From NCBI GenBank assembly GCA_017999435.1, contig JAGNLV010000002.1:372001-436000 (forward strand): a stretch of 64,000 nucleotides of DNA, read 5' to 3'. The translations under genes and the position numbers were made by a program. The notes under the pieces are model-generated. The model had not been told where the DNA came from. It did not search any database and was given only the letters and a program-made list of their open reading frames with translations. Positions within the stretch are counted from its first letter, which is position 1; each line of letters starts with the position of its first letter. Positions 3,345 through 52,538 of the stretch are shown one piece after another. This DNA comes from Candidatus Zixiibacteriota bacterium (GTDB lineage: Bacteria > Zixibacteria > MSB-5A5 > GN15 > FEB-12).

Positions 3345-3398
3345 CGCCAGTCAATATACGGACTGACGGCGGCCGGGCGCGAGAAATATGAGGGGGGC

Positions 3399-3938: not shown

Positions 3939-4017
3939 TGACTTTGTCCTCCTGGGGAGCATAGGTCGAAATATCGGCGCGGCCGGCGTGACGCCTGAGC
4001 GGGGGCGGGAAAAAGGG

Positions 4018-4047
4018 TTGAATAAACCGCTGGATTGTAGATAATAT
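4018..4047 (+). promoter_or_regulatory. Probable sigma70 promoter of the TM2 gene
   Basis: TTGAAT (4018-4023) and TAATAT (4042-4047) are 18 bases apart. The ATG at 4087 follows about 33 bases after the predicted start. Confidence 0.45.
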
Positions 4048-4086
4048 GGGCAGGAATCCGAGCGGCTGATCAAAGAGAGGACAGGT

Positions 4087-4368
4087 ATGGCGAACGGAAC
4101 AACACCCGTGTTCTACAAGAATCCGGGGCTGGCGGCGGTGCTGTCGTTCTTCTGGATGGGGCTGGGGCAGATCTACAACGGCCAGATCGCCAAGGGCGTG
4201 TTTTTCATCGTCCTGTACGCGGTGTCGGTGCTCATGATGCTGATCCTGATCGGCTTTCTCACCACCCCGGTTCTGTGGATCTGGGGAATGTACGACGCGT
4301 ATTCCTCGGCCGAGAAACTCAACCGGGAGCTGGCGAGCCGTCAGGGAAGCGGGCCGGCCGGGTACTGA
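4087..4368 (+). CDS. TM2 domain-containing membrane protein
   Basis: 93 residues. Two hydrophobic segments (about 14-35 and 40-72) flank the short turn NGQIAKG, and the first contains GLGQIYNGQ, the signature of the TM2 family. An AGAGAGGACAGGT stretch just before the ATG supplies the ribosome binding site. The C-terminus is short and cytoplasmic (AEKLNRELASRQ). TM2 proteins are widespread and mostly uncharacterised. It ends 19 bases before the convergent methyltransferase gene. Confidence 0.8.
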   Translation: MANGTTPVFYKNPGLAAVLSFFWMGLGQIYNGQIAKGVFFIVLYAVSVLMMLILIGFLTTPVLWIWGMYDAYSSAEKLNRELASRQGSGPAGY

Positions 4369-4387
4369 GGGCCCCCGCCCGAGGCGG

Positions 4388-16536: not shown

Positions 16537-17628
16537 ATGACCTTCGGCGCGAAGTCCCCGGGGAACTTTGGTTGGGTGCTCGCATGTGGCGTCATTGTGG
16601 CCGGGGCGGCTCTGTGTCCGTCGGCCTCGGCGCAATTGCCCGATTTGGTGATAGATGTCGGGGACACGACGGCCTCGCCCGGGGCGATGAACACGGTTAT
16701 CCCGGTCTTTTTGAGCAACTATAATGATACGGTGGCGGGATTTAACATCTGGCTGCAGCTCGACCGCCCCGATATCATGATTTTCCAGACCAACACGGAT
16801 ACGGTGGTGGACACACTCCACTGGCGGTGCACGCAGTACAGCGGTTCGGACTGCATCGACTCGGTGGTTGACACGCTGAATTGGGAGTGGGTTACGCTCG
16901 ATTCGTACATAGTGGAGACCGGGAATTTCGACACCAGCGGCACCCTGATTTCGGGGTGGGAGGCGGTGCAGGCGCGGTCCCTCTCCTCCGTCGGCACGGA
17001 CCTGAACATCGTCGGTCTGGCCGACTACTACACGGGCGGGGTGACCCCCGGGATCCCGCCGCAGTCGGAAGGGTTGCTGATCAAGGTGCTGGCCGATGTG
17101 CTGCAGATTCCGGACACGGCGACGGGGACGAACCGGGACGTGAATATTCTCGTGCAGCATCAGTTCATCGACCACTTCAGCTTCTCGCGGCCCGACGGGT
17201 CGGCGATCGGGCTGAAAGACACGGTGGTCCAGGATACGAATTGGTACATTTGCACAGCGTGGGCGGGGGATGTCTGTCTGAACTGGCAGCGGGTGAGTCT
17301 CCCGCCGGCCGATTCCTTCTCTGTCGTCTACGACACGACCGTGGTGATCGACTATTCGAAGGTGTTTATTACCGGCGGGTCGTTGCATGTTCTGGAGGGG
17401 ATCTGCGGGGATGCGAACGGGGACGGGAACCCGGTGGTGCGGATTTCGGACCTGACGTACATGATCCAGTTCCTGTTCCGGGGCGGTCCGGCGCCGGTTC
17501 CGCTGTGGGTGGGCAACGTCGACTGCTCGGCCAATCCGCAGCCGAACGTGGCGGACCTCACCTACATGGTTTCGGCGCTGTTCCGGGGCGGTCCGTTGCC
17601 GTGCCAGGGACCGCTGTGCAGCAAATAG
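16537..17628 (+). CDS. Secreted cohesin-like / dockerin-like protein
   Basis: 363 residues; AAGGAGGAAGGT precedes the ATG. A signal peptide ends near PSASAQ. Residues ~35-285 form a cohesin-like beta-sandwich (LVIDVGDTTASPGAMNTVIP, then VAGFNIWLQLDRPDIMIF) with long insertions. Residues ~287-363 form a dockerin-like pair: first loop GDANGDGNPVVRISDL with helix TYMIQFLFRGGPAP, second loop GNVDCSANPQPNVADL with helix TYMVSALFRGGPLP. The second calcium loop is degenerate (Ser and Asn-Pro replace Asp-Gly), so it may bind calcium poorly. Having both partner-type modules in one chain allows self-association. It is the first gene of the surface-protein locus. Confidence 0.8.
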   Translation: MTFGAKSPGNFGWVLACGVIVAGAALCPSASAQLPDLVIDVGDTTASPGAMNTVIPVFLSNYNDTVAGFNIWLQLDRPDIMIFQTNTDTVVDTLHWRCTQYSGSDCIDSVVDTLNWEWVTLDSYIVETGNFDTSGTLISGWEAVQARSLSSVGTDLNIVGLADYYTGGVTPGIPPQSEGLLIKVLADVLQIPDTATGTNRDVNILVQHQFIDHFSFSRPDGSAIGLKDTVVQDTNWYICTAWAGDVCLNWQRVSLPPADSFSVVYDTTVVIDYSKVFITGGSLHVLEGICGDANGDGNPVVRISDLTYMIQFLFRGGPAPVPLWVGNVDCSANPQPNVADLTYMVSALFRGGPLPCQGPLCSK

Positions 17629-17647
17629 CGCGGTTGGGACAACAACG

Positions 17648-17673
17648 CGGCGGGGCCGCTCGCGGCCCCGCCG
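17648..17673 (+). terminator. Terminator-like hairpin without a U-run
   Basis: CGGCGGGGCCGC and its exact complement are separated by TC, 20 bases after the stop at 17628. No T-run follows, so it may pause or stabilise the 3' end and allow some read-through towards 18052. Confidence 0.5.
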
Positions 17674-17851
17674 ATTGAGACAGGACGCCGAAGACGAAGA
17701 GATGTACTTACCGGTTACTTGCAGAATTGGCGTAGAACACAAGAACTGAACGTTGATTAGGAGAGAACTGCCGGGTCTGCTTCGGCGGGCGCGGCGCAAC
17801 CAACAACCCGAAAATAGATGGGAAGGAGGACGCACGTAAAGAGGTTACGTT

Positions 17852-18055
17852 ATGACACGCGCTCAAATGAATAGAATGAACGGGACGCTCGACCGTTTCC
17901 CCGCGCTTGCCGGAGAGAACGGATTGCGGGTTTGGTGGCTCTCACCTGCGGCCGGTTCCATTACGGTCATTGAGGGGGTTCCGGGAGACGCGTGGAGTGC
18001 ACGTACGTTCTTATCATCAACAACTGTTAACGAAGTAAGTAGGAGTAAAACATGA
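17852..18055 (+). CDS. Possible 67-residue leader ORF upstream of the 862-residue protein
   Basis: The frame has GAGG seven bases before its ATG, and its TGA overlaps the ATG of the next gene (ATGA at 18052-18055), an arrangement typical of translational coupling. The product (begins MTRAQMNRMN) has no recognisable domain, signal peptide or membrane segment. The next gene also has its own AGGAG, so this may be a regulatory leader frame or chance. Confidence 0.25.
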   Translation: MTRAQMNRMNGTLDRFPALAGENGLRVWWLSPAAGSITVIEGVPGDAWSARTFLSSTTVNEVSRSKT

Positions 18056-20640
18056 AACGCATCGCTTTGTTTACCGCTGCGTTGATGATCCTTTCATTTG
18101 GGCTCGCTAGTGCTCAGGATGTCTGTGACTTGGCGGCTCCGCCGGCCGGTTCCTGGGACGGCGGCACAAAGGTCAACACAGGCGTTCCGATCGTGTTCAA
18201 CATCCGGCTGGCCGTCGATGCGGCGAATCCGGACAACATCATGGGCGCCACGAACGGCTGGACGGTCTATATGACCGGTCCGGGCGCGGGCGGCGCGCTG
18301 ACCCTGACGACCGCGGTGGCTGATCTGAGCGCGCTGTGGGACGGCGGTCAGCCGATTACCCCGTTCCTCGATGGCACGAGCCCTGAGATGGTCGGTGTGG
18401 CGGGCTTCAGCTTCTTCAAGGATGGTCTTCCGGAAGGTTTCTCGGTGAATCCTTACGTGACCATCACGACCAGCCCGATGGACGAGGCGTGGGCGGGCGG
18501 ACAGCTCTGTATCGACTCGGCCTTCTACCCGCCGGGTGGTTACTGGCTGTGGGCCGACGCGGCTGACCCGGTCGACCGGGTGCCGGCGTGGGGCGGTCCG
18601 TACTGCTACACGATCGAGAAGATCCCGAACCTGTGCCCGACGATCACGAATCCGCCGGCGGTGCAGCTGGGCGGCAGCCACTGCACGGCGATCAGCTACG
18701 ACTTCAACGCGACCGATCCGGAAGCGGATGCGATCACCTTCCACAAGGTGAGCGGCATCGGCAACATCGACCCGGTCTCGGGCGTGTGGTCGTACTCGCC
18801 GACGATTGCTGATGTCGGCACGGTGTTCACGGTCGAAGTGACGGCGATCGACGGTTTCCACAATGTGGGCGACTGCCCGATCGTGTCGTTCGACGTGGTC
18901 TTCACGAATGCGGCCCCGACCGTGACCTGCCAGGGTCTGAAGCAGGTTGGGAAGGGCAACACGATCACGGTTCAGATCACGAAGAACAATGTCGACTGCG
19001 ATCCGGGCACGTTCTCGATCGTGAGCGTGACGCCGGCTCCGGTGGGCGCGGTTTCGATTGATCCGAACACGGGTCTGTTGACGTTCGTGACCGACATCAC
19101 CGATGGCGGCATCCTGTATGACATCGTGGTCGGTTACAGCGACGGTTTGGAGACGGCGACCTGCACGCAGCAGATCGAAGTTCTGCAGACCGAGCCGTTC
19201 GGCATCTACATCGAGAAGACGCACATGTCGTTCCAGGGTCAGCACGAGTTTGTCGACGTGTCGATGTTCCAGGGTTCCGAGCAGCTCTGGGGCTTTGACC
19301 TGCTGATCGCGTACGACGCCTCGGTGCTGTCGTTCCAGGCGGCGATTCCGGGCGACATCTACGAGGAGTGCGGCTGGGAGTACTTCACGTACCGTTACGG
19401 TGCGAATGGTAACTGCGGGAATGCCTGCCCGAGCGGGCTGCTGCGCGTGGTCGGTTTTGCCGAGACCAACAACGGCGCCAACCACCCGACCTGCTTCGGT
19501 ATGGCGTATCCGTACTCGCTGTTCACGCTGGACTTCCTGGTTTCGGACAACCGGACCTACGAGTGCCAGTATGCGCCGATCCGCTTCTTCTGGCTCGACT
19601 GCGGCGACAACGCCCTGTCGTACCACGAGATTGCGGCTCCGGAGCCCTATAGCCAGGTCCTCGGCATCAGCCGCTTTGTCTATGACAATGCGTTCGATGC
19701 GGCCGGCAATTTCGTTCCGGCGAACGGTATGTTGATTCCGATGGCGCTGACGTTCCCGTCGTGGGGCGGCGCGATCGACGAGTGCGACGACATTTACAAT
19801 CCGGACAAGCCGGCGCCGATCCGCTTTGTGGACTTCTACAACGGCGGTATCGACATCGCCTGCGCTGACTCGATCGACGCGCGCGGCGACATCAACCTCG
19901 ACGGCCAGGCGAACACCATTGCCGACGCAGTGCTCTTCAGCAACTACTTCGTGTATGGTCTGGGCGTGTTCACGGTCAACGTGCAGGGCCAGATTGCCGC
20001 GACCGACGTCAATGCCGATGGTATTGCGCTGAGCGTGGCCGACCTGGTGTACCTGATCCGTGTGGTCGTGGGTGATGCGCTGCCGTATGCGAAGCTGTCG
20101 CCGGTGACGGCGCAGATCAGCAACGTGGGCGGCGTGCTGTCCGTCGACCAGAGCATGGGCGCGGCCTATGTCGTGGTTGAGGGCCAGGCGAACCCGACCC
20201 TGTTGGCTTCGGGCGTTGACATGAAGTATGCCTACGATGCGACCGAGAACGTCACGCGCGTGCTGGTTGTCGGCATGGCGCAGGGCGCGGCCTTCCAGGG
20301 CGACTTCCTCCAGGTCAACGGCACCGTCCGCAGCATCGAGATGGCCACGTACTACGGTGCGCCGGTCACTGCGAAGCTGCCGTCCACCTTCGAGCTGCTC
20401 CAGAACTACCCGAACCCGTTCAACCCGACGACGACGATCAGCTTCACGCTGCCCACGACGTCGGACTACACCATCACGGTGTACAACGTGACGGGCCAGG
20501 TGGTGGCCAGCCACAGCGGCAACGGCCAGGGCCAGATCGACTGGACGTTCGATGCGAGCAAACTGAGCTCGGGGATCTACTTCTACAACGTGGCCGCCGG
20601 TGACAACAGCGCCACCAAGAAGATGGTCCTGATTAAGTAA
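18052..20640 (+). CDS. Secreted multidomain cohesin/dockerin-like protein with C-terminal sorting domain
   Basis: 862 residues; AGGAG six bases before the ATG, signal peptide ending LASAQD. After an N-terminal domain, two putative Ig (He_PIG/cadherin-like) domains lie at ~193-283 and 284-378, a clear cohesin-like domain at ~381-545 (EPFGIYIEKTHMSFQG, then LWGFDLLIAYDASVLSF), an internal dockerin-like pair at ~609-680 (GDINLDGQANTIADA and TDVNADGIALSVADL), and the C-terminal domain at ~776-862 (NYPNPFNPTTTISF ... SSGIYFYN ... KKMVLIK). The last domain is used for type IX-type export and anchoring in FCB bacteria. Codon use favours GGT, GCG, AAC and AAG, unlike its neighbours, suggesting high expression. 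A strong terminator follows. Confidence 0.85.
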   Translation: MKRIALFTAALMILSFGLASAQDVCDLAAPPAGSWDGGTKVNTGVPIVFNIRLAVDAANPDNIMGATNGWTVYMTGPGAGGALTLTTAVADLSALWDGGQPITPFLDGTSPEMVGVAGFSFFKDGLPEGFSVNPYVTITTSPMDEAWAGGQLCIDSAFYPPGGYWLWADAADPVDRVPAWGGPYCYTIEKIPNLCPTITNPPAVQLGGSHCTAISYDFNATDPEADAITFHKVSGIGNIDPVSGVWSYSPTIADVGTVFTVEVTAIDGFHNVGDCPIVSFDVVFTNAAPTVTCQGLKQVGKGNTITVQITKNNVDCDPGTFSIVSVTPAPVGAVSIDPNTGLLTFVTDITDGGILYDIVVGYSDGLETATCTQQIEVLQTEPFGIYIEKTHMSFQGQHEFVDVSMFQGSEQLWGFDLLIAYDASVLSFQAAIPGDIYEECGWEYFTYRYGANGNCGNACPSGLLRVVGFAETNNGANHPTCFGMAYPYSLFTLDFLVSDNRTYECQYAPIRFFWLDCGDNALSYHEIAAPEPYSQVLGISRFVYDNAFDAAGNFVPANGMLIPMALTFPSWGGAIDECDDIYNPDKPAPIRFVDFYNGGIDIACADSIDARGDINLDGQANTIADAVLFSNYFVYGLGVFTVNVQGQIAATDVNADGIALSVADLVYLIRVVVGDALPYAKLSPVTAQISNVGGVLSVDQSMGAAYVVVEGQANPTLLASGVDMKYAYDATENVTRVLVVGMAQGAAFQGDFLQVNGTVRSIEMATYYGAPVTAKLPSTFELLQNYPNPFNPTTTISFTLPTTSDYTITVYNVTGQVVASHSGNGQGQIDWTFDASKLSSGIYFYNVAAGDNSATKKMVLIK

Positions 20641-21441
20641 TCTGAGCATTAGCTTGGATCACATGTCCCCGGGAAGGTTCAAGCCTTCCCGGGGCCTTTT
20701 ACCCGAAAGGAGACGCCACAGCGCACTTGATAGCGAAGCAGCAGTGACAGGGAGCCGAAGGAAAGAGACGAGATGACCGCGCGTATGTGGTGCCTTAGCA
20801 ATGGGGGATCTCCAACATCGGTCATCTTTTTTTGTCCAGGGCTGACAGGTCCTACCCGAAAGGATGATGTGCACGAGGTTGCGGGAGTGCACGCTCATTC
20901 AACCGCCAACGTGGAACTGCGACTTTCCCTCGCCCGAAAACTCGCCCGGAGAATTACAGGGGGCTCCATCGGAGATTAGATACTAAGACCCGGCAGAACG
21001 CCGAGATTTGATGTTAAGTACTTGAGGTGTGGGTTCTTACAGGGAGTTAAGAAGGACCCCCCAAAACGTCTTCATCAGGTCCGCCACCGTCAGGGACAGA
21101 CCCGGTGCGCCGGCAGGTCGGGCCGCTGTTCGGTCCGGAGTTTGCTTAGTGAGGAGCGGTATGTTCCGTCTCGCTACATATATTAATTGTGGTTCACGCG
21201 CACTTTTCGGGATTGTGATGTATATTGGGGTGATCCGGTGGGCGATGGAGTGCCGGTCCGATCGACGCCATGTTCTCGATCTGGGTACGGTTGGCGACCG
21301 CGAACCGAATCCATGTCGGGGCCAGGGTGTTTCTGCTGGTCTCAGAGATCCCGGGAAAACCCGCGGGCGGCAGCCCGCCCGGCGGCCCGGTGCGTACCTG
21401 ATACGGAAAGATAATCGTTTGAGTCCCGTGGAGGATCGTAT
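20641..21441 (+). other. Intergenic region with terminator and long leader; no gene seen
   Basis: 800 bases. The terminator at 20667 comes first. The 12-base word TACCCGAAAGGA occurs at 20700 and again at 20853. A TATATT box at 21221-21226 could be a -10 box, but no -35 lies at the right distance. The last 80 bases hold GC-rich inverted repeats (GCGGGCGGCAGCCCGC near 21362) before the ribosome site GTGGAGGA. No open frame has convincing coding character. Confidence 0.5.
20667..20702 (+). terminator. Intrinsic terminator
   Basis: Stem CCCCGGGAAGG / CCTTCCCGGGG with loop TTCAAG, followed by CCTTTTA, 27 bases after the stop at 20640. Confidence 0.9.
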
Positions 21442-24057
21442 ATGACAAGGCTCTTGACGGTACTGGCGGCGGTCTGTGGCCTGGTGCTGATCGGTGCGGC
21501 CGATCAGGCGAACGCCCAGAGCAGTCCGCTGAGTTGCGCCAATCAGCTGGCCAACATGAACCTGTTCCCCGACAGCATCCGGGTGCTTCCGGCAACCGGA
21601 CGGCCCGGGGATACGATCAACGTGCAGATCGGCATGCGGAACACCAAGAAGGCGGCCGCCTGGGCGCTCTATCTCGATGTGGATACGACCTGGCTGAAGC
21701 CGATTCTGAACCAGTACGACCCGATCGAGGATGCGTACGAGTACAAAATCCTCCCGACGGGCCGGGTGGACACGACCGCCCTTGACCGGTTCACGGCCAA
21801 CAACGAAAAGGACTATCCCTCGATCGCCGATCATCTCCGCCTGAAAATCCTCGGGCTGCCCAAGTCGACGGGGATCCGGGCGGCCATTGACTCCGGGCGC
21901 GGGTCGATCATCAGCATGCCGATGGTGATCACGGAGGGAACGCCCCACAACACGCAGACGTCGCTGACCTGGTACTATGCCGACATCGTCGACCCGATCA
22001 ACCCGACCATCATCTACGGGTGCCAGTATTCGAACTACACCAACGACACCGGGACCTACACGGGCAAGTTGGCGACGATCTCGGGGGCGGTGCGGGTGGA
22101 CACGGCGGCGGTCCAGGGGCCGGTCATCAACTCGTTCGCGGCCAATCCGACCTCGCTGCCGTCGGGCGGCGGATCGACGACCCTGTCGTGGACGGTGACC
22201 AACGCCGACACGATCTATATCAGCCCCGGAAACATCACCCGGAGCGGATCCGCGGCCCTCTCCGGATCGGTGCTGGTCGGCCTCAGTTCCACGACCACGT
22301 ATACGCTGACGGCGGCGAAGATTGCCAGCTCGCAGCGGCCCACTGCGCAGGCGACGGTGACGGTGGAGGGGACGGTGAGCAACAACAACCCGGTGGTGAG
22401 TCCGATCTCCCCCTCGAGCTACACGATCACGCAGGGGGAGAACGTGTCGTTCTCGGTGACCGCGACCGACGTGGACGACGACTTCATCACCCTGTCCGCG
22501 CAGAATCTCCCCGCCAACGCGACTTTCGGGACAGGCGGCCAGGTGACGGGGACGGGGACGGCGACGGGGAATTTCAGTTTCACGCCGAACACGACGCAGG
22601 AGGGGACTTTCGTGGTCGGTTTTCGGGCGACTGACGACCGGGGCGGGGCCTCGACCGTGGTGAACGTGAGCATCACGGTGGAGAAGATCCAGTTCGACAT
22701 CCTCTTCTCGAAATCGCGGGAGGGCGGATCGCCGGTCGGCGGACTGCCGGGGAAGCGCTCGATCCTCTTCCCCATCGACCTGGTCACCTCGCAGGATGTC
22801 TATGGCGTCCAGTTCGATTTCTTCTATGACGACATGTTTTTCGAGATCGATTCGATATTCACGACGACCCGGACCGAGGGCTGGGTGATTTACGACAACA
22901 TCGGCCAGCCGGGCACTCCCGCGGGCGAGATCCGGATCATGACGTTCGGAATGGAGACGAACCCGCTGGCGATCGATTCGACGAACAGCACGACCATTCT
23001 CTTCATTGCCATGTCGATCGACTCCTCGGCGACCTGGGGAGACTACCCGATCTATCTGGAGAACGGGTGGGAGTCGAACAATCCCGATCCGGCCTACCCC
23101 TCGCTGCAGCTGGTCACCGATTCGGCGATCATTCAGGTCGACCGGCGCGGCGATGTCAACCTGGACAAGCGGATCGACGTCGCCGACGCGGTGAATATCG
23201 TGGCGGCCATCCTCGGGAATATCACCCTGGTGGAACGCCAGTTCGACGTGGCTGATATCGTGATCGACGGCACGGTCGATGTGTTCGACCTGGTCGGCGT
23301 GATCAACACAGCGTTCGGGCTGCCGGTCGAGCAGCCGCAGCCGGTCGCGCCGAGCGGAGGCGAGCTGTTTGCGACAGTCAGCCTGGAGTACCACGACATG
23401 TTCGCGGGCTCGATCGACGAGCTGGTGGTCAGCTCCGAGCTTCCGGAAGAGATTGCCGGAGTCCAGTTGAACATCACCTACGATCCCGCGGCGGTGGTGC
23501 TCGGGCAGCCGAAGGCGGCCGACGACGCCTCGGGCCTGAAACTCCTGTACAAGAATACCGGACCCGGCGAAATGCTTGTGCTGATGCATTTCACGCGGCC
23601 GGGGGATCAGCAGCAGCTCATTCAGCGCGGTCTGGCGGATCTGGTGCAGATCCCGATCACGGCGCAGAATGACGTCGAGTACGGCAACCCCGCCCAGTTG
23701 AAACTGACGTCGGTGAAACTGGCGACGCCGACCGCTAAGGCTTTGGAAGTCAAGGGGTTCGGCCCGACACTGCCGGCGGCGTTCACCCTCTACCAGAACT
23801 ACCCGAACCCGTTCAACCCGATGACGACAATCCGGTTCGAGTTGTCCGGGACCAGCCGGCGGGTGCAGCTGGATGTCTTCAACGTCCTCGGCCAGCAGGT
23901 TCGCCGGCTGCTGGACGAGACGGTGGCGCCCGGAGAACACAGTGTGGTCTGGGATGCCACAACCGATAATGGAAGTAAAGTAGCTACGGGCGTCTACCTC
24001 TATCGTTTGCAGGTGGGCGACCAATCGGATACAAAGAAAATGCTCCTGCTGAAGTAG
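21442..24057 (+). CDS. Secreted multidomain protein: cohesin-like, Ig, cadherin-like, dockerin-like and C-terminal sorting domains
   Basis: 871 residues; signal peptide ending NAQS. A cohesin-like sandwich (SIRVLPATGRPGDTINVQIG) covers ~45-190; an Ig-like domain ~228-312; a cadherin-like domain (NPVVSPISPSSYTITQGENV) ~315-413; a second cohesin-like domain ~414-565; an internal dockerin-like pair ~568-630 (GDVNLDKRIDVADAV and VIDGTVDVFDLVGVI); a third cohesin-like domain ~640-770; and the sorting domain ~778-871 (NYPNPFNPMTTIRF ... GVYLYRL ... KKMLLLK). Three cohesin-like domains make it the best scaffold candidate of the locus. It is followed after 21 bases by the 3135-residue gene on the same strand, with no terminator between, so the two form an operon. 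Confidence 0.85.
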   Translation: MTRLLTVLAAVCGLVLIGAADQANAQSSPLSCANQLANMNLFPDSIRVLPATGRPGDTINVQIGMRNTKKAAAWALYLDVDTTWLKPILNQYDPIEDAYEYKILPTGRVDTTALDRFTANNEKDYPSIADHLRLKILGLPKSTGIRAAIDSGRGSIISMPMVITEGTPHNTQTSLTWYYADIVDPINPTIIYGCQYSNYTNDTGTYTGKLATISGAVRVDTAAVQGPVINSFAANPTSLPSGGGSTTLSWTVTNADTIYISPGNITRSGSAALSGSVLVGLSSTTTYTLTAAKIASSQRPTAQATVTVEGTVSNNNPVVSPISPSSYTITQGENVSFSVTATDVDDDFITLSAQNLPANATFGTGGQVTGTGTATGNFSFTPNTTQEGTFVVGFRATDDRGGASTVVNVSITVEKIQFDILFSKSREGGSPVGGLPGKRSILFPIDLVTSQDVYGVQFDFFYDDMFFEIDSIFTTTRTEGWVIYDNIGQPGTPAGEIRIMTFGMETNPLAIDSTNSTTILFIAMSIDSSATWGDYPIYLENGWESNNPDPAYPSLQLVTDSAIIQVDRRGDVNLDKRIDVADAVNIVAAILGNITLVERQFDVADIVIDGTVDVFDLVGVINTAFGLPVEQPQPVAPSGGELFATVSLEYHDMFAGSIDELVVSSELPEEIAGVQLNITYDPAAVVLGQPKAADDASGLKLLYKNTGPGEMLVLMHFTRPGDQQQLIQRGLADLVQIPITAQNDVEYGNPAQLKLTSVKLATPTAKALEVKGFGPTLPAAFTLYQNYPNPFNPMTTIRFELSGTSRRVQLDVFNVLGQQVRRLLDETVAPGEHSVVWDATTDNGSKVATGVYLYRLQVGDQSDTKKMLLLK

Positions 24058-24078
24058 CATCAGGGAGGAAGAAGGTAG

Positions 24079-33000: not shown

Positions 33001-33486
33001 CAGGCGCCGTACTGGAGCGGGACGTATCCGGCGACGGTCGACGTGTACCCGGATATTCAGCATACGACGACGGTGACGGCGGTTGACCCGGACGGGTTGC
33101 CGCTGGTGCTGACGGCGGGGCCGCTGATTGCCGGGGCCAACTTCGTGGACGACAACAACGGGACGGGCCGGTACATTATCCTGGCCGATGCACTGCAGGT
33201 CGGGACGGTGTCGACGGTGACATTCACGGTGACCGATTCCGGCGGGCTAACCGACGAGATGCAAATAACATACAGAGTGCTGTCGTTCCTCCGCGGAGAC
33301 GCGGATGCGAACAGCCAGTACTCGCTGAACGACGTGGTCTTCCTGGCGAATTACCTCTTCCGGGGCGGCCAGGCGCCGGCGCCGTTGGAGTCGGGTGACG
33401 TTGACATGAACGGGCGGATTGAGGTGGCCGATCTGGTGTACATGATCAATTTCCTGTACAAGTCGGGACCGCGTCCGCCGCAATAA
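24079..33486 (+). CDS. Giant secreted repeat protein: about 32 cadherin/Ig-like domains plus C-terminal dockerin-like module
   Basis: 3135 residues. GGAGGAAG precedes the ATG and a signal peptide ends AAGAAAQ. From residue ~18 to ~3070 I count 32 tandem units of about 93-100 residues, each built as N-Q-x-P-V-L-x-x-I-G ... E-x-x-x-L-x-F ... D-x-D-G ... LPxGAxF-x-DNGxGTGxFxWTP ... G-x-Y-x-V-T-F-x-A-x-DG ... D-x-E-x-V-x-I-T-V. This is the putative-Ig/cadherin-like family that makes extended, often calcium-stiffened stalks. Units 2-7 are almost identical at DNA level; units from 25 on are divergent. Residues ~3072-3135 are a dockerin-like pair (GDADANSQYSLNDVVFLANY and GDVDMNGRIEVADLVYMI). There is no C-terminal sorting domain, so surface attachment probably depends on the dockerin-like module. 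Confidence 0.9.
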   Translation: MSRIHALILTGVLLLAAGAAAQTAPPVLDPIGAQSVNENVSLNFGVSASDADATIPVLSTSALPTGATFTDNLDGTGSFAWTPDFTQASEYSVTFYAADAVTADIDSEIVSITVNNVNQEPVLAAIGPRSVAENANLNFGVSASDADGQALTLTTSTLPLGATFTDNGNGTGTLDWTPDFTQSGVHNVTFRASDGTAIDSEIVAITVTNVNQEPVLAAIGPRGVAENANLNFGVSASDADGQALTLTTSTLPLGATFTDNGNGTGTFDWTPDYTQSGVYNVTFRASDGTAIDSEIVAITVTNVNQEPVLAAIGPKSVAENANLNFGVSASDADGQALTLTTSTLPLGATFTDNGNGTGTLDWTPDFTQSGVHNVTFRASDGTAIDSEIVAITVTNVNQEPVLAAIGPRSVAENANLNFGVSASDADGQALTLTTSALPSGATFTDNGNGTGTFDWTPDFTQSGVHNVTFRASDGTAIDSEIVAITVTDVNQEPVLAAIGPRSVAENANLNFGVSASDADGQALTLTTSALPSGATFTDNGNGTGTFDWTPDYTQSGVYNVTFRASDGTAIDSEIVAITVTNVNQEPVLAAIGPRSVAENANLNFGVSASDADGQALTLTTSTLPLGATFTDNGNGTGTFDWTPDYTQSGVYNVTFRASDGTAIDSEIVAITVNEVGNQQPVLAAIGNKSITEGIPLNFGVSATDAESTPVLTTSLLPTGAAFTDNGNGTGAFSWTPGYTQSGTYLVMFYARDDSLAVDSELVQVFVLEAGNQAPVLAAIGPKTTTEDVNLNFAVSASDPDGTTPNLTATGLPTGATFTNHGDGTGTFDWTPGFTDAGVYNVTFRASDGTLIDDEVVAITVLESGNQAPVLAAIGPKSTTENILLTFGVSAGDPDGQTPVLTTSTLPTGATFVDNGNGTGTFSWTPTFTQAGAHNVTFYAADGALLDSEVVAITVIDAGNQAPVLAAIGPKSTTENILLTFGVSASDPDETTPALSAANLPTGASFTDNGDGTGTFTWTPTFAQAGAYDVTFTASDGSLTDQEIVNITVTEAGNQAPVLAAIGPKSTTEDVLLTFGVSASDPDGTTPALTATGLPTGASFTDNGDGTGTFSWTPSFTQAGVYSVTFAASDGSLTDQEIVSITVSESGNQAPILAAIGPQTTTEQVRLLFVVSASDPDLTTPTLTATGLPSGATFTDNGNGTGTFDWTPTYTQAGAYNVTFTASDGSLTDDEVVAITVNDAGNQAPVLAAIGPKSTTEDVLLTFGVSASDPDETTPSLSATNLPAGASFTDNGDGTGTFTWTPTFAQAGVYNVTFTASDGSLTDQEIVTITVNESGNQAPVLAAIGPQSTTENILLTFAVNASDPDGTTPALSATGLPTGASFTDNGNGTGTFTWTPSFAQAGVYNVTFTASDGVLVDQEEVAITVNEAGNQAPILAAIGPQSTTENVLLTFGVSASDPDGTTPVLSATNLPAGASFTDNGNGTGTFSWTPTFTEAGSYNVTFTASDGSLTDEEIVAITVNEAGNQPPVLAEIGPKATAEEALLTFGVSATDADGTTPALSATDLPSGANFTDNGNGTGTFTWTPTFAQAGIYNVTFTASDGLLTDEEIVEITVVDAGNQAPVLAAIGPKSTTEAVPLLFDVSAADADGTTPTFTTSTLPAGATFIDNGDGTGSFDWTPDYTQAGVYNVTFRATDGVATDSETVAITVLDAGNQSPVLAAIGSKSTTENVLLQFTVSAGDPDGTTPALTATGLPSGAVFTDNGDGTGTFDWTPTYTQAGAYNVTFTASDGSLTDEEVVAITVLEAGNQPPVLAAIGPKATTEGVQLLFAVSASDPDGTTPTLTTSDLPTGATFTDHGDGTGTFDWTPGFADAGAYSVTFRAIDGLVVDSEVVAITVVESGNQAPVLDPIGAQAGTEAVLLTFAVSASDPDGTTPSLLAGSLPTGAVFTDHANGTGTFSWTPTFAQAGIYNVVFTASDGSLTDDEIVTITIADAGNQAPILAPIGPQDTQEGIQLLFAVTASDADGTIPTLTSSALPGGALFTDHGDGTGTFDWTPGPTAAGSYAVTFYASDGAAIDSEAVAITVFAVNQPPVLSPIGAHTVNEGVILNLPVSASDPDGDFPLLSTSVLPTGAVFADNGDGTGALTWTPTYVQAGVYTVTFYATDALLSTAVDSEMVTINVLNVNRPPVLQPIGTRAIAEGSTLSFLVTAADPDGAFPLLTTSVLPGTAAFTDNGNGTALFLWATTFADAGTYTVTFYATDAFYPAEVDSEVVTIIVGEAGNQPPQWTEINDTTVAEGATLVLTVSAADFEGNLIALTVSATLDAANYTFVDNGDGTGVLTYTPDYLDAGLDSIRFIATDNAAPPLSSVMRVAVTTLDRNQPPQFLPAGPYAVDALDTLQFTITAYDSTDAQDGRIFLSVVDLPANARFTDNGNNTGRFWFAPTLAQVGVDTIHFIGVDDDVPAQTGYLSVVVTVRQVNQAPVLSPIGTRKVAEGGTLIIDLAATDPEGAVPAFSVKNAPPNSALVDHGDGTASWTFTPSFTQAGLYYVEFRASDGQSFDKEVVLIQVTEAGDQAPYFTYVPTPSVVEGETLTDSIRATDPDLDPVTLSVVEGTTPAHFTFTNVGGGLGTYTFAPDFTQSGIHVIQVVATANERADTTDLLIEVIEFGNHPPALAFIQNQFTTELRLLTFSVQGGDIDGDIPILSTSPLPGAATFVDSLNGKGGFRWLPSDQDAGVYEITFYAADGNPAYPDDIDSQKVTITVADTNRVPLTLVQPAAPTDVNEGLLITRWFQATDPDGTTPVLSAHLSGADTLARNMTFVDSGNGHGAIFFTPDYAQGNSNPSFYYFVFRATDADNPALQVESATQTFRVFNVPQPPVMSFTPSTGPFTVNEGDSVRFSVLSMDPDGLQPVMRAENVPVNATVVVSPPNSLRFTFRPNYAQAGTYEVRIIADDATAAVPRLSDTEIVTITVVDMGNQAPYWSGTYPATVDVYPDIQHTTTVTAVDPDGLPLVLTAGPLIAGANFVDDNNGTGRYIILADALQVGTVSTVTFTVTDSGGLTDEMQITYRVLSFLRGDADANSQYSLNDVVFLANYLFRGGQAPAPLESGDVDMNGRIEVADLVYMINFLYKSGPRPPQ
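24430..26106 (+). repeat. Six near-identical 279-base tandem units
   Basis: Units start at 24430, 24709, 24988, 25267, 25546 and 25825; the last is 282 bases. They differ mainly in a few variant patches (STLPLG versus SALPSG; LDWTPDF versus FDWTPDY) shuffled between copies, as expected from recent unequal crossing-over or gene conversion. Confidence 0.9.
26107..33290 (+). repeat. Diverged part of the tandem domain array
   Basis: About 25 further units of roughly 282-300 bases in phase with the reading frame. Their DNA has drifted, but the protein pattern persists, so they are older than the 24430-26106 block. Confidence 0.85.
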
Positions 33487-33519
33487 CTGCGTTGTCGGCA
33501 GCGACTTTTGCCACAAAGA

Positions 33520-33547
33520 GCCGCCCTCTCGGGCGGCTTTTTGTTGT
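33520..33547 (+). terminator. Intrinsic terminator
   Basis: GCCGCCC / GGGCGGC with loop TCTC, followed by TTTTTGTTGT. Confidence 0.92.
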
Positions 33548-33602
33548 CGTTTTTATGCTTGCGAAGGGGGGGTGATTTTAGTATGTGAAGCGGGAAAAAC
33601 GC

Positions 33603-33631
33603 TTGACAGGAACCTATTATAACCTTATATA
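33603..33631 (+). promoter_or_regulatory. Strong sigma70 promoter
   Basis: Perfect TTGACA (33603-33608), 17-base spacer, TATATA (33626-33631). Confidence 0.75.
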
Positions 33632-34050
33632 TGTGATAGCTTTCGCGGAAGTGGTATGGTTGGCAAAACAGGAAGGTCTTGCTGAATTCTCTCTTGACGC
33701 ATTGCCGTTATTCTCGAAGGCTAACAGACTTTCAGTTCAGTTTTTGATTCGCCATGCTGCTTGGATACGTAGAACTTTGCCGTAGACGTACGCTTGCTTC
33801 AGAATTTCGTGGGACGAATGAACCTTTGGTGAGCGCTGCGGGCGATGTCTGCTTGCGGGGCAGTTGCCCGGGTGCACAGGAAGGGAGGTGGATCCACACA
33901 GAGAGTCAATAGCTTTTGCGCTTGCAACCGGAGGCGCACGCCCGGGGTCTCGCTCCGGCCCGCGTCTTCGGGTCCTGAGTGGTTAACCATGTATTTGGTG
34001 ACGTAGAGGAATAAGTTGGGAACACTCTCAAACTCTCGAAAGGAGTTGCG

Positions 34051-37000: not shown

Positions 37001-37353
37001 ACGACTACGATCTGGCCGCGACCGGCGCCCTGTACATCTACACGGCGTACATGACGGTCCAGAACGGGACGCTGGCCAACCTCACCACTGTCGCCAACAA
37101 GGCGCAGAAGTGGGCGGAAGGCCACGTGATGATCCCGATGGGTTGCTGCAAGCTGCGCGGCGACTTCAACAATGACGGTGCGGTGAAGGTGGCTGACCTG
37201 ACGGCCCTGATCAACTACCTGTTCCGTGGCGGCGCGGCCCCGAGCTGTCTCGCCCACGGCGACACGAATGGTGACGGGACGATCAAGGTGGCCGACCTGA
37301 CGCTCCTGATCAACTACCTGTTCCGCGGCGGTCCTGCGCCGGCGGCCTGCTAA
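34051..37353 (+). CDS. Secreted 1100-residue protein with BNR-like motifs and C-terminal dockerin-like module
   Basis: GAAAGGAG precedes the ATG; the signal peptide ends VFAAS. The central part contains Asp-box-like motifs of beta-propeller proteins (SLDYGVTWQPRVN near residue 333, SISNDSGLTWDRARN near 490), so residues ~240-590 may form a sialidase-type propeller, without proof of enzyme activity. An Ig/choice-of-anchor-like region follows (~605-710), then a domain with GGSDENIQWYKG. The C-terminus (1035-1100) is a good dockerin-like pair, GDFNNDGAVKVADLTALINY and GDTNGDGTIKVADLTLLINY, each followed by LFRGG, and is bracketed by cysteines (CCK, SCL, AAC). Codon use resembles the 862-residue protein, suggesting strong expression. 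No sorting domain. Confidence 0.8.
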   Translation: MTRKITSVAILSLLLVAFLGVTVFAASAPQQTKRTVDKQINASMQYAFPYPDEQSIPGSVRVQPGQQLGIASPTASPGLAVGNTFYDYQHNGRVGRMNETRTGGKTIAHFSWMFLPSAALVDRAAAYTQYDFSTQQLYSPFATLQATGDYAGYVNLDVTNDNRAVVTCHNQEAVDAHYDIEVYWDFMEGFVTFGYRDSVPAALSQYAKQPQVGTDYNEVNWPSMAYVEGPTPGDTVTHVFGQASLPEAGDPQAIYYFRRVGAMDDPAATWDFPPKVVDTVHDIAQTVDGNDAGKTALVWIANVPCTDADPDTASCDEIAGATQWNNDLYYQISLDYGVTWQPRVNVTKSRIAQAADIPHFQPYTDLGILLDTQGDLHIIWGAAYWPTGSTLYVFSRSAILHWSQDVPYIRTVVDATWEPGDCFPGVWNLTVAKMSISECRNKFYVLFSQFNDRPNGVLTDCATESNPGYPDGAANADLYVSISNDSGLTWDRARNLTNSRTPGCDSANGAGGPCDNDMWATMARFGDTHNAGAGVPVVLPAGASGGSGFYLDVQYINDHSAGGIVQDEGTWQNSDVKWFRMQCIDPVVAPNPVWSPPEIGFPAWTKAGVIFDSVVTLTNIGNTAYSFTITPIMDAGPLSGWLSYTGFTSPVNSGLNNTTTGTVIVTPTGAVAGQIYHLTGRLRFVNAQIGNRDYEIDFIVADTVVPPVFDTIATACTPLALMVRSDGLFGGSDENIQWYKGMGLDYYGVDCDTTAGPYIYSGSPVVMWLDGSDTVANWTAFDNDYVTPFGFYPVSHVAAHAAGDSGQVFTSTFLVRDSSIAIEKTWFAPQVADSCNFVVQRLKIYSNDGLAHNDLLIGEAVDWDIPSDTGSRNASDFNSTLKLIWQQGAEYNDTLECQNNDARFGAMKFLGMAYVNGPTTTVLNSTAPFGAYTKDNPTYVYGNTYGFNKSQLWENMKAGGWSKYTSTAPESLYTDLHMAMTFDDDYDLAATGALYIYTAYMTVQNGTLANLTTVANKAQKWAEGHVMIPMGCCKLRGDFNNDGAVKVADLTALINYLFRGGAAPSCLAHGDTNGDGTIKVADLTLLINYLFRGGPAPAAC

Positions 37354-37399
37354 GGCCTGAGGGAACAGCAGTAGAGCAACGCATCTACTGACCATATGA

Positions 37400-37432
37400 G
37401 GCCGCCCCGCCTGTGCGGGGCGGCCTTTTTTG
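37400..37432 (+). terminator. Intrinsic terminator
   Basis: GGCCGCCCCGC / GCGGGGCGGCC with loop CTGT and TTTTTTGT after it. Confidence 0.93.
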
Positions 37433-37434
37433 TC

Positions 37435-37462
37435 TTGTCAGAACGGGAGGATGCCGTATATT
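37435..37462 (+). promoter_or_regulatory. Sigma70-type promoter of the subtilase gene
   Basis: TTGTCA (37435-37440), 16-base spacer, TATATT (37457-37462); it begins right at the U-run of the preceding terminator. Confidence 0.6.
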
Positions 37463-37708
37463 GTAGGTGGCGATATGTGTCCGCCGGAGATTCGAGTCAT
37501 ACCAGTACTGTGACCGCAAATATCCTCACCGATGCCCGATGGAACCGTACTGGGGCAGGCGATCCAGATGGTCGATAGAGATAGCGTGGCAACGAGTTCG
37601 GTTCGCGCCGCCGGCGGCTGCCGGTCGACGGGCGGGCAGGCGCGGCGGCCGGGCTGTGTTCCGGATTATGCTTGAAGTTCTAACATAGAGTGATGGGAGT
37701 CCTGTAAG

Positions 37709-40081
37709 ATGATGCGAAAGGTAAGTCTGCTTCCGCTGCTGGTGCTGATTTCGGTTGGCGCGCTTACGGTTACGGCGCCGGCGGTAACGGTACCGGGCGG
37801 CGAGCCCCCGAAACCGCTGCTCGTGCCGGGCCGGGTCACGGTGCAGTTCGAGGACAACGTGGCGGTGACGGCGGCGGCCAAGTCGTTCGGCCGCGTGTCG
37901 TTCGGCATCCCGAGCCTCGATGCTGTCCTGGCCGACCTGCGCGTGAGCGATTACCGCGCGATTTTCCCGTGGCGGACGGAAAAACCGCCGGTCAATTCCG
38001 GTATGCACGACCTCACCCGATTCTACGAGTTCTTCTTCCCGGAGAATGTCGACGTTCGCGATGTGGTCGCGGCCCTGCTGCAGAACCCGAATGTCCGCAC
38101 AGCCTACCCGGTCTGGGACATGCCGCTGCGGGCGACCCCCAACGATCCGATGTGGTCCAACCAGTGGGCCATGGAACCGGGCCCCCCTGATCCGAATTTC
38201 TACACCGCCTGGGATATCGAGACCGGGTCCGATTCGGTGCTTTTCGGGTGTGTCGATTCCGGCGTGAACTACACCCATACCGACCTGGCGCCGAACATCT
38301 GGGTGAATCCGGGCGAGGATCTGGACGGCGACGAGGCGGTGTACGACGCGGATGACCTCAACGGGGTGGACGACGACGGCAACGGGATTGTCGACGACCT
38401 GATCGGATACGACTTCCTCACCTACGCCGGATCAGTCCCGGCGGGAGAGGACGGCTCGGTCCGGGATCCCAACCCGAACGATTTCACCGGGCACGGGACG
38501 CACGTGGCGGGCATCGCGGCGGCCGCCAACAATAACGGCATCGCCGTAACCGGGGCGGCCGGCGGCTGGTTCGGCGGCAATCGCGCCTTCCGGGGCGCCC
38601 GGATCATGTGCCTCCGGGCCGGGTACACTTCTACCGACGGCAACGGGTACGTGAATTCCAACGACTGCGCAGCCGCCATTGACTACGCCGTGATGATGGG
38701 GGCCGATGTGATCAACGCCAGCTGGGGCGGCGCCAGCATCACCGCGACGGCGGCGGCGAATGCGATCGCGGCCGGGGTGACGTTCTGCCACGCGGCCGGC
38801 AACGACGGTTTGGACAACCCGGACGAAATCGATTATCAGACGGGAGTGCTTTCGGTGGCCAACGTCGGGCCGAGTTCGGACATTAAGGCGTCCAGCTCCA
38901 ACTATGGGTACTGGATCGACGTCTGCGCTCCGGGCGAGCAGATCCTCTCCACCTATTCGGACGAGTACACCGCGACAACCGCTTACCTGTGGGGGACCTC
39001 GATGGCCTCGCCGATGGTGGCGGGTCAGGCGCTGCTGATTCGGTCGGCCATGCCGTCGCTGAGCAAGGCGCAGGTGGACTCGCTGATCATCGGCACCGCC
39101 GACCCGGTGGAGTACGCCAACCAGCCCCAGTACCACTTCAAGCTCGGATCGGGGCGGATCAACGCGTGGAAGGCGCTCCGCGGCTTGGCAAGCGCGAAGT
39201 TCACCGCCGACGTGACCAGCGCCAACGTGCCCTTCACCGTGCAGTTCACCGATTTGTCCCCCTACTCGCCGACCTCGTGGCTGTGGAAATTCGGCACCGG
39301 CGACCAGTCGACCGAGCAGAACCCGGCCTATGAGTACACCGCCCCGGGATTCTACGACGTGTCGCTCATTGTCGACGACTCCTCATCGATAGGGCCGGGC
39401 GAGGAACACCTTCGCAAGTACATCTGGGCGCGGGCCGACAGCCTGAAGATGGATTCGGTGCAGGTCGGCCTGGGCGAACAGGTCGTGATCCCGGTTTACC
39501 TGCACAACACCGGCTACATCAGCGACATCAAGTTCGCTTTCCAGTTGGAGAATCACGACGAGCGGAAGGTGGAGTACGATTCGTTCTCGGTGGCCGGGCT
39601 GCGCACCTCCTATTTCGCCTACAAGAGCCTGGTGGGTGAAAACCGGAACACCCAGCAGTTCGCCATCTCGTTGCGGCCGACGCTGGTGGGCACGCCCGAC
39701 TATCTTCCGCCGGACACCGGGGCGATCGTGAAGCTGTATCTCACCGTGCACACCACGGCGACCCCCAACCAGTTGGTGACGATCGACACGGCGACCGCCG
39801 CCGGCCACTCGCCGGTGATCGTGACCCCCTACGGCAACTACTGGCCGGTCCTTACGGTCGGGAAAGTGGCGGTCCGGGCGTGTCTGCGCGGGGACGCCAA
39901 CTGCGACGGCCAGATCAAGATTTCGGACCTGACCGTTATTATTGCGTACCTCTTCCAGGGAGGGCCCGAACCCGATCCGCGGGGCGGGGATGTGAACGGG
40001 GACGGGACGATCGCGATCGCCGATGTCACCTACCTCGTGAACTACCTGTTCCGAGGGGGTCCGCCGCCGATCGAGGACTGA
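37709..40081 (+). CDS. Secreted subtilisin-family (S8) protease with PKD, cohesin-like and dockerin-like domains
   Basis: 790 residues with signal peptide and a propeptide of ~140 residues. The catalytic domain has Asp183 (CVDSGVNYTH), His262 (GHGTHVAG), oxyanion Asn365 (AAGNDG) and Ser431 (GTSMASP), so it should be active. The loop DDLNGVDDDGNGIVDDLIGYDF (~216-237, acidic) probably binds calcium. A PKD domain (SWLWKFGTGDQSTEQNP) lies at ~494-575, a cohesin-like sandwich at ~578-720, and the dockerin-like pair at ~727-790 (GDANCDGQIKISDL and GDVNGDGTIAIADV). The dockerin-like module suggests docking to the same surface complex, for maturation of its parts or for nutrient proteolysis. It has its own promoter and terminator. 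Confidence 0.92.
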   Translation: MMRKVSLLPLLVLISVGALTVTAPAVTVPGGEPPKPLLVPGRVTVQFEDNVAVTAAAKSFGRVSFGIPSLDAVLADLRVSDYRAIFPWRTEKPPVNSGMHDLTRFYEFFFPENVDVRDVVAALLQNPNVRTAYPVWDMPLRATPNDPMWSNQWAMEPGPPDPNFYTAWDIETGSDSVLFGCVDSGVNYTHTDLAPNIWVNPGEDLDGDEAVYDADDLNGVDDDGNGIVDDLIGYDFLTYAGSVPAGEDGSVRDPNPNDFTGHGTHVAGIAAAANNNGIAVTGAAGGWFGGNRAFRGARIMCLRAGYTSTDGNGYVNSNDCAAAIDYAVMMGADVINASWGGASITATAAANAIAAGVTFCHAAGNDGLDNPDEIDYQTGVLSVANVGPSSDIKASSSNYGYWIDVCAPGEQILSTYSDEYTATTAYLWGTSMASPMVAGQALLIRSAMPSLSKAQVDSLIIGTADPVEYANQPQYHFKLGSGRINAWKALRGLASAKFTADVTSANVPFTVQFTDLSPYSPTSWLWKFGTGDQSTEQNPAYEYTAPGFYDVSLIVDDSSSIGPGEEHLRKYIWARADSLKMDSVQVGLGEQVVIPVYLHNTGYISDIKFAFQLENHDERKVEYDSFSVAGLRTSYFAYKSLVGENRNTQQFAISLRPTLVGTPDYLPPDTGAIVKLYLTVHTTATPNQLVTIDTATAAGHSPVIVTPYGNYWPVLTVGKVAVRACLRGDANCDGQIKISDLTVIIAYLFQGGPEPDPRGGDVNGDGTIAIADVTYLVNYLFRGGPPPIED

Positions 40082-40103
40082 CCTGGGACGACTGCAACTG
40101 TAT

Positions 40104-40139
40104 GCGGCGGGCGGCCTTGAGCGCCCGCCGCTTTCTTTT
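40104..40139 (+). terminator. Intrinsic terminator
   Basis: GCGGCGGGCG / CGCCCGCCGC with loop GCCTTGAG, followed by TTTCTTTT. Confidence 0.9.
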
Positions 40140-40169
40140 GGGCAAATCTTGACGGATCGACATTTTTTA

Positions 40170-40198
40170 TTGACGCCCCTTCGGCCGGGGCCTATCTT
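40170..40198 (+). promoter_or_regulatory. Strong sigma70 promoter
   Basis: TTGACG (40170-40175), 17-base spacer, TATCTT (40193-40198). A leader of about 165 bases follows before the ATG at 40371. Confidence 0.7.
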
Positions 40199-40370
40199 GT
40201 CGGACAGTGAGAAAGGCGAAATACGTGTAGCGAAAAGCGAAGCGTGGAGAAACAGGAGTTCATGCTCCAGGAGGTGTGCGATCTAAGAGGAATCGATAAC
40301 GACGGATATTGTCCTAGATAGCGATAAGTTGAGAGTTTCGACAACAGCAGCTACGCATGGAGGCTGATAT

Positions 40371-41210
40371 ATGAAGGCGAGATTACTGATTCTTTCCCTG
40401 CTGATCGGGATGTTGGTCGCCGGTTCGGCGTGGGCGCGCCCGGACCCGCAGGATCCGTTTGGCTTAATGGACACGGTGATCCTGGTGCCGCAAGGCGACC
40501 CGGCATCCGGTCATTTCCAAGTGGAGCTGTGGGTGTACTCGGATGAAGGTCTCTCCGGGGTCACGATCGGTTTCGTCTGGAACAACCCGAAGGTGCAAAT
40601 GGACAGCGCCAAGGCGTCGGCGCTGACAAGCGGGGCGTTCACGCTCGGGACGTTCTTCTATGAGCAGGCCAACATCACCCTGACGAACACGAATCTGCGC
40701 TTCCTTTTCGGCGGTCTGGCCTTCACGTCACCACTGGCCGGAGACGGCTCGGGGCGCCGCCTGTGGGCGACGTACTACTTCAACACCACGGGCTGGACCG
40801 ATGTCGATGCGGTCACGTTTGATGAAACGGCCTGGGGGCTCGGTACCGATTACTCCTTCGTGGAATTCGACCTCAATACTGAGTTTTACCCGGCGTTCCT
40901 GGGAGCGCTCACGGATGTGACGGGCACGGTCCAGGAAAACCTACCGGTGTCGTTCGCGCTGAAGCAGAACTACCCTAACCCGTTCAACCCGGCGACGACG
41001 ATTTCGTTTGATTTGCCGAGCAAATCGAATGTCCGGTTGACGGTGTACAACGTCCTCGGTCAGGAGGTGATAACCCTGATCGACCGGGAGATGGATGCTG
41101 ATCAGCATTCGGTGAGCTGGGATGCCTCAAAGCAGGCCTCGGGGGTGTATTTCTATCGGCTCGAGGCGGGCAGTTTCACCGAGACCCGTAAGATGTTGCT
41201 GCTGAAGTGA
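40371..41210 (+). CDS. Small secreted cohesin-like protein with C-terminal sorting domain
   Basis: 279 residues. GGAGG precedes the ATG; the signal peptide ends GSAWAR. Residues ~30-185 form one cohesin-like sandwich (HFQVELWVYSDEGLSGVTIG). Residues ~191-279 form the sorting domain (LKQNYPNPFNPATTISFDLP ... TVYNVLGQEV ... SGVYFYRLEAG ... RKMLLLK). With one cohesin-like module and a surface-sorting tail it could be the cell-surface receptor for dockerin-bearing partners at 16537, 24079, 34051 and 37709, which lack this tail. Own promoter and terminator. Confidence 0.82.
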   Translation: MKARLLILSLLIGMLVAGSAWARPDPQDPFGLMDTVILVPQGDPASGHFQVELWVYSDEGLSGVTIGFVWNNPKVQMDSAKASALTSGAFTLGTFFYEQANITLTNTNLRFLFGGLAFTSPLAGDGSGRRLWATYYFNTTGWTDVDAVTFDETAWGLGTDYSFVEFDLNTEFYPAFLGALTDVTGTVQENLPVSFALKQNYPNPFNPATTISFDLPSKSNVRLTVYNVLGQEVITLIDREMDADQHSVSWDASKQASGVYFYRLEAGSFTETRKMLLLK

Positions 41211-43627: not shown

Positions 43628-43640
43628 CGGGGAATCACTC

Positions 43641-45344: not shown

Positions 45345-45376
45345 GCAGCGGCACACCGACAGCGGGCCGGCGCGAA

Positions 45377-46705: not shown

Positions 46706-46918
46706 ACCACTGTGTCTACGCCGGGAGGCGGCGTAAGTTGCTGAATGTATAGGAAACGGCGGGGGGCAATAAAAGCAAAAAAAGCGGCCAATGGGCAGGG
46801 GCGCGAGTGCTCGGCGCCGAAAAATGAGGCCTTGCGGGAGAGGAAAAAACCGGCATATTGCGGTCAGAGCCGCTGCCCGGCCCGACCCGCGCGCCGGGGG
46901 CGGCGCGAGGGAGCGTAC

Positions 46919-48670: not shown

Positions 48671-48735
48671 GCTGTTCGGGCGCATTAACGTTCATCCGAT
48701 TCAGCCGATATAACGGAAGAAGCGGATGGAAATAA

Positions 48736-50295: not shown

Positions 50296-50341
50296 GAGGA
50301 AACGGAAACAAGGAACCAATGACCGATAGCAGGGATGAGCC

Positions 50342-51340: not shown

Positions 51341-51353
51341 CTTTCTTGAAGGG

Positions 51354-52535: not shown

Positions 52536-52538
52536 CGA

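Follow-up and report, generated by a model that had tools for sequence, protein, structure and literature searches.

A conserved Zixibacteria locus as the probable scaffold of a non-cellulolytic, type IX-anchored cohesin–dockerin display system

The surface cellulosomes of Clostridium and Acetivibrio are held by a Gram-positive cell-wall anchor, and the dockerins of cellulosomal enzymes are typically C-terminal. Two further systems are known from proposals that are both genome-based inferences (PMC6461901; PMC8542988). In freshwater Planctomycetes (Nemodlikiaceae), a peptidase complex, the planctosome, has been proposed to comprise a cohesin anchor, an adaptor with dockerin, HYR and cohesin domains, and M12B and M14 peptidases (PMC6461901). 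In Candidatus Stygibacter (Cloacimonadota), dockerin enzymes, including an S8 peptidase as well as GH18 and GH57 enzymes, have been proposed to assemble on a single 3,755-aa scaffoldin with repeated cohesins, CBMs and a T9SS-type C-terminal domain (PMC8542988). Cohesins and dockerins outside cellulose breakdown, the subject of a 2009 report as far as it is cited in PMC8542988, appear to fall in the same general class. No conserved operon of such composition is described in the literature we found, and a limited literature search recovered no paper on Zixibacteria with dockerins, cohesins or T9SS.

The locus described here lies in a 64,000-nucleotide stretch (the window) of the 3.5-Mb, 7-contig genome of a Candidatus Zixiibacteriota bacterium, a member of an uncultured phylum. 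Seven successive plus-strand ORFs, labeled A to G in order of their starts (Table 1), adjoin one another, and each opens with a segment that a heuristic scores as signal-peptide-like, in agreement with an original prediction of seven consecutive exported proteins; X denotes an additional tail protein sitting between B and C in relatives. Among the seven, Pfam places C-terminal Por_Secre_tail domains on B, C and G and on no others, exactly the three for which sorting domains had been predicted. It also recognizes dockerins above cut-off in E and F, a Cohesin match in C (28.7 bits for the entire protein, cut-off 24.1), a subtilase with PKD in F (Peptidase_S8, E 4.2e-39, with S8 motifs present), and Ig/cadherin-like repeats in D. 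By itself, Pfam misses most cohesins and finds no match at all in A. No cellulose-binding module, tandem cohesin scaffoldin or lamin-tail domain was matched by Pfam among the window proteins. The genome encodes T9SS machinery, with PorU at 638 bits over cut-off and a SprA_N match, so that B, C and G, each with a Sec-type signal peptide and a C-terminal sorting domain, have the features of T9SS cargo.

Table 1. Proteins and modules of the locus, with positions in the window
Feature	Positions	Strand	Content or evidence
A, 363 aa	16537..17628	+	signal peptide, large cohesin with insertions aa ~35-286, Cys-flanked C-terminal dockerin aa ~289-356
A terminal dockerin-like pair	17401..17604	+	orthologue profile vs PDB dockerins
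B, 862 aa	18052..20640	+	cohesin aa ~383-606, internal dockerin aa ~612-680, T9SS tail aa 786-859
B cohesin	19198..19869	+	A7 profile 134.7 bits
B T9SS sorting domain	20407..20628	+	Por_Secre_tail 54.1 bits, E 2e-14
C, 871 aa	21442..24057	+	N-terminal cohesin-like domain (moderate support), Ig/Big_9, cohesin 2, internal dockerin, cohesin 3, T9SS tail
C cohesin 2	22687..23142	+	A7 profile 142.7 bits; Foldseek; combined profile vs PDB
C internal dockerin	23146..23331	+	Dockerin_1 23.7 bits (genome search); HHalign 94% to A's dockerin
C cohesin 3	23359..23766	+	Pfam Cohesin best stretch aa 665-751; PDB cohesin 5g5d E 0.0046
C T9SS sorting domain	23800..24045	+	Por_Secre_tail 30.4 bits; TIGR04183 31.9 bits; solved PorU E 8.6e-5
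D, 3135 aa	24079..33486	+	~30 Big_9/He_PIG/cadherin-like repeats, C-terminal dockerin, no tail
D terminal dockerin	33295..33456	+	E 6.7e-4 (genome search); conserved in orthologues
E, 1100 aa	34051..37353	+	unclassified body, terminal dockerin 44.1 bits (Pfam, above cut-off)
E terminal dockerin	37159..37320	+	49.2 bits, E 2.3e-12; top-scoring dockerin of the genome
F, 790 aa	37709..40081	+	subtilase aa 177-482, PKD, possible cohesin-like domain, terminal dockerin
F terminal dockerin	39890..40048	+	36.4 bits, E 2.2e-8 (genome search); Pfam scan 38.2 bits
G, 279 aa	40371..41210	+	unclassified beta-rich domain, T9SS tail
G T9SS sorting domain	40971..41195	+	Por_Secre_tail 43 bits

The jelly-roll cohesin fold is recovered in A and C by structure and in B by profile. 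An AlphaFold model of A (pLDDT 86.0) has solved cohesins as all 44 of its best 44 PDB fold matches; a model of aa 414-871 of C (pLDDT 86.7) returns solved cohesins in Foldseek at TM 0.6-0.81 (normalized to target length), which dominate its single-domain matches. A combined profile of the B, X and C cohesins (A7) finds cohesins in 37 of its 38 PDB matches at E <= 1, the best at E 1.1e-10. Three cohesins had been predicted in C; cohesins 2 and 3 are well supported, and the N-terminal domain moderately so, with HHalign matching it at 81% to cohesin 3 and to the cohesin of A. The cohesin-like sandwich also predicted in G found no support in the tests used. A candidate domain in F is ambiguous, matching cohesins at E 0.1 alongside antibodies.

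Dockerins close A, D, E and F and lie within B and C, as predicted; direct searches detect those of E and F, and orthologues reveal those of A and D. Six solved dockerins rank first (E 0.015-0.26) when the A orthologue profile is compared with the PDB, the same element closes A in 18 of 18 orthologues, and its flanking cysteines are invariant in 17 aligned sequences. The D dockerin is sub-threshold in Pfam (15.6 bits) and is present at the C-terminus of all six D orthologues read to the end. The internal dockerins score weakly in Pfam scans of the proteins (14 bits in B, 17.5 in C), and HHalign matches them to the dockerin profile of A at 91% (B) and 94% (C) probability.

The genome as a whole, window included, holds 60 Dockerin_1 and 45 T9SS-tail matches, and only two of the 60 dockerins share a reading frame with a tail. 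The dockerin lies <=17 residues from the C-terminus in 52 of 56 proteins outside the window; a rough heuristic finds a signal-peptide-like start in 49 of the 56 and a possible lipobox in about four. Type I dockerins are characterized by helices and a pair of F-hand calcium loops, D-x-(N/D)-x-D...D, and these features are present here: terminal dockerins keep both loops, and in both repeats aspartate stands at position 1 in 44 of 46 and at position 12 in 46 of 46. Identity between the repeats averages 12.5 of 22 positions. There is a strong LFRGGPAP consensus, and cysteines flank the module in 31 of 46 aligned cases, possibly forming a disulfide clasp that closes it. Cohesins are fewer: the A7 profile gives 14 matches in 13 ORFs, of which eight carry tails (B, C and six more), three carry terminal dockerins, one is lipoprotein-like and one is a 441-aa ORF. 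The split anticipated in the original prediction, between tail-less proteins ending in dockerins and tail proteins bearing cohesins, extends genome-wide for the two C-terminal modules and is borne out by the cohesins of B and C; for G it is not demonstrable, and in many T9SS-tail proteins elsewhere in the genome no cohesin was detected.

A cohesin and a terminal dockerin are combined in A and three other proteins, one with two adjacent cohesins and one with HYR domains; A and proteins of loci L249 and L245 are of this adaptor type. The L245 protein (2480-5137, plus strand) has five HYR domains besides its cohesin, and Pfam overlooks its terminal dockerin. At L243 (2001-3620, minus strand), a cohesin and an internal dockerin occur without a tail in a protein with a possible lipobox, perhaps a lipoprotein anchor. 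L250 (2174-5904, plus strand) encodes three successive T9SS-tail proteins, the first of which is the sole Pfam Cohesin match of the genome search.

The dockerin proteins are rich in peptidases. Fourteen outside the window match peptidase families (one only C39-like), in addition to F inside it, and the families span S8, M28, M14, M12B, M6, M4, M1, trypsin-like and C39-like; propellers and PKD/Ig proteins are also represented. No GH, PL or CE family was matched at E <= 1e-6 in the 49 dockerin proteins scanned. An ordinary cellulosome, which the original prediction had set aside for want of a cellulase, is rejected on this absence of GH from the proteins scanned; none of the seven locus proteins is a cellulase either.

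Conservation of gene order had been suggested as a check, and it is extensive. Among 20 loci from the family and order of the host, 18 keep A-B-[X]-C; D comes next in 16 of these, and in two the contig ends. Of the remaining two loci, one has no A and the other neither A nor B in the stretch read. X is found in 17 of the 20 and is missing from the window itself. Ten loci sampled from further families of the class, with some A and B assigned on modest profile scores, keep A-B-[X]-C-D whole or mostly in nine cases, the tenth (G106) having X and C only. A orthologues hold the same position in most relatives. Matches to the core of C (aa 414-871) at E <= ~1e-70 occur in 90 of the 132 genomes representing the phylum and span 16 of 19 families; many dockerin-bearing genomes have no C orthologue, and therefore C itself is not required. 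Assemblies that are fragmented frequently break immediately 3′ of C, as is expected from the 279-282-bp tandem repeats of D. That E, F and G might be lineage-specific, as loci ending early had implied, was dropped, because they recur where contigs extend beyond D: G028 and G055 have all three, G087 (read as far as F) has E and F, G041 has E and G, and G015, from the host's own family, has only G. E also follows D in G019. F orthologues are 43-46% identical in G028, G055 and G087, and G orthologues are found in G015, G028 and G041, with that of G055 matched through the tail region.

Across the phylum, cohesins and dockerins tend to be present or absent together. Dockerins occur in 125 of 129 genomes. 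The four genomes without them (G119, G120, G121 and G067) have no cohesin match and keep T9SS-tail matches, as does G122, with one weak dockerin match. The same profile, run on 24 dockerin-bearing genomes, gave one or more cohesin matches in 23, in two of these only marginally. A hypergeometric probability calculated by hand is 5e-5, in a sample that the authors chose and in which the dockerin-less genomes represent two families; the co-absence is suggestive only. Families f17 and f6 apparently lack the whole cohesin–dockerin system and retain T9SS tails. The genus g30 (G074, G075, G076 and G029) has 20-41 dockerins, 0-1 cohesin matches and no C orthologue, and perhaps uses another cohesin type.

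We consider it probable that the locus encodes the conserved scaffold of a non-cellulolytic, T9SS-anchored cohesin–dockerin protein-display system, which apparently mounts some sixty secreted proteins, many of them peptidases, on the cell surface. The proposal that proteins with cohesins and tails hold those with dockerins and no tail is supported in outline, because only two of the 60 dockerins overlap with tails, most cohesin proteins are tailed, and the two modules are largely co-present or co-absent. B reads as an anchor and C as the main conserved anchor, and A looks like an adaptor. In such a system, Sec would take all seven proteins across the inner membrane; the type IX system would then move B and C (X in relatives and, less certainly, G) over the outer membrane by means of their C-terminal domains, with PorU fixing them to the surface. 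In the presence of calcium, anchor cohesins would bind A, D, E and F by their C-terminal dockerins, along with more than 50 further dockerin proteins from other parts of the genome. A and the other proteins with a cohesin plus a terminal dockerin would act as adaptors, perhaps F too; D, with its long run of Ig repeats, would serve as a stalk or adhesin; and extracellular proteolysis would fall to F and the other dockerin-borne peptidases. The domains, the gene order, the genome-wide division between the modules and the presence of T9SS are observed; from these we infer the binding, the surface location, the proteolytic role and the substrate. The locus would not be self-contained, as the dockerin proteins encoded elsewhere would compete for the same cohesins. 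The internal dockerins of B and C adjoin cohesins, and may pair inside one anchor or link one anchor to another.

Some observations count against the display model. B, C and X each have a dockerin beside a cohesin, which allows for intra-chain pairing; dockerins (60 or more) far exceed the 14 detected cohesin matches; and genus g30 has almost no detected cohesins. The presence of cohesin and internal dockerin on every anchor would also suit a structural coat, in which A, B, X, C and D polymerize through cohesin–dockerin contacts, both inside and among these proteins, into a constitutive surface layer or fiber and other dockerins are secondary. Conservation and synteny of the A-B-[X]-C-D core across the phylum are what an envelope component would show, and D is a giant repeat protein, dockerin-ended wherever its end is seen. 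Such a coat leaves unexplained the more than 50 other exported proteins with the same terminal dockerin, and the recurrent peptidases among them; we regard it as rather unlikely on its own, and it is compatible with the display model, not exclusive of it.

The regular placement of the terminal dockerin at the extreme C-terminus, with its LFRGGPAP consensus, frequent flanking cysteines and near exclusion of T9SS tails, could instead mark a different kind of C-terminal signal, for export or sorting, or a calcium-stabilized cap, in either case with no cohesin binding. However, the domains are recognized as dockerins with both calcium loops retained, they vanish along with cohesins while T9SS tails stay, and cellulosomal enzymes carry theirs at the C-terminus as well; we find this explanation improbable. 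Far less credible is that two unrelated facts have been joined, with T9SS proteins sharing cohesin-fold sandwiches by chance and periplasmic dockerin proteins having other partners. The dockerin proteins do show only a Sec signal, no T2SS marker (GspG) was found, and the sandwich of G is not a cohesin by the tests used; yet anchors and dockerin proteins are adjacent, that adjacency is conserved, and both modules are absent together.

The route of the dockerin proteins bears on the display model directly. No export signal beyond Sec is seen in those without tails. A search for one T2SS marker, the GspG-type component, was negative with positive controls in place; this single-marker result counts against type II secretion as the route and also weighs against display. 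Transport of proteins in the folded state is reported for T9SS (PMC9251779), and it is therefore conceivable that dockerin proteins hitch-hike: pairing with B, C or X, dockerin to cohesin, would take place in the periplasm, and the two folded partners would leave together through the T9SS pore. We hold this idea to be doubtful, and found nothing direct on T9SS piggyback export in the literature. If true, cohesin–dockerin pairing would extend T9SS transport to about sixty proteins. The split between tails and terminal dockerins makes both the surface route of tail-less dockerin proteins and T9SS transport with a bound passenger open to experiment.

Compared with the Clostridium and Acetivibrio cellulosomes, whose cohesins are the best structural matches of A and C, the present system has the same cohesin fold, C-terminal dockerin pairs and apparent division into anchor, adaptor and cargo, and its genome likewise combines a cohesin scaffoldin with dockerin-bearing proteins. 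It differs in lacking a cellulase and a tandem cohesin array in the locus, in having dockerins inside the anchors, in a putative cargo of peptidases, propellers and PKD/Ig proteins, and in the T9SS tail that replaces the cell-wall anchor. A dockerin-borne S8 peptidase and a T9SS-type tail on a cohesin anchor are shared with Stygibacter; unlike the single scaffoldin proposed there, the anchors are several, smaller and encoded together in a conserved order, and the proteins scanned gave no CBM or GH match. Like the planctosome, the host has a cohesin anchor, cohesin/dockerin adaptors (including the cohesin-HYR-dockerin protein of L245) and dockerin-bearing peptidases, M12B and M14 among them; the planctosome anchor is a lamin-tail-domain protein (PMC6461901), whereas B and C use T9SS tails. 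The best reading is a phylum-wide variant of these two proposals. What is new is the conserved multi-gene locus across the phylum, the near-exclusion of tails and dockerins, and the co-absence of the two modules. If the display model is correct, cellulosome-style assembly would be a core surface trait shared throughout an uncultured phylum, and would serve, together with type IX secretion, a purpose other than cellulose breakdown, probably proteolysis.

The block 3′ of G (41438-55282 of the window) is likewise syntenic in relatives. It encodes a GH35-like protein without a signal peptide, gamma-glutamyltranspeptidase, bactofilin, CstA, a GGDEF protein, GH3 (NagZ-like), AnmK, SpoIID and OmpA family proteins, a composition that suggests peptide and peptidoglycan salvage near the locus. 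The GH35-like gene follows the conserved row in G028, G055, G041 and G015; the stretch read in G087 ends at F.
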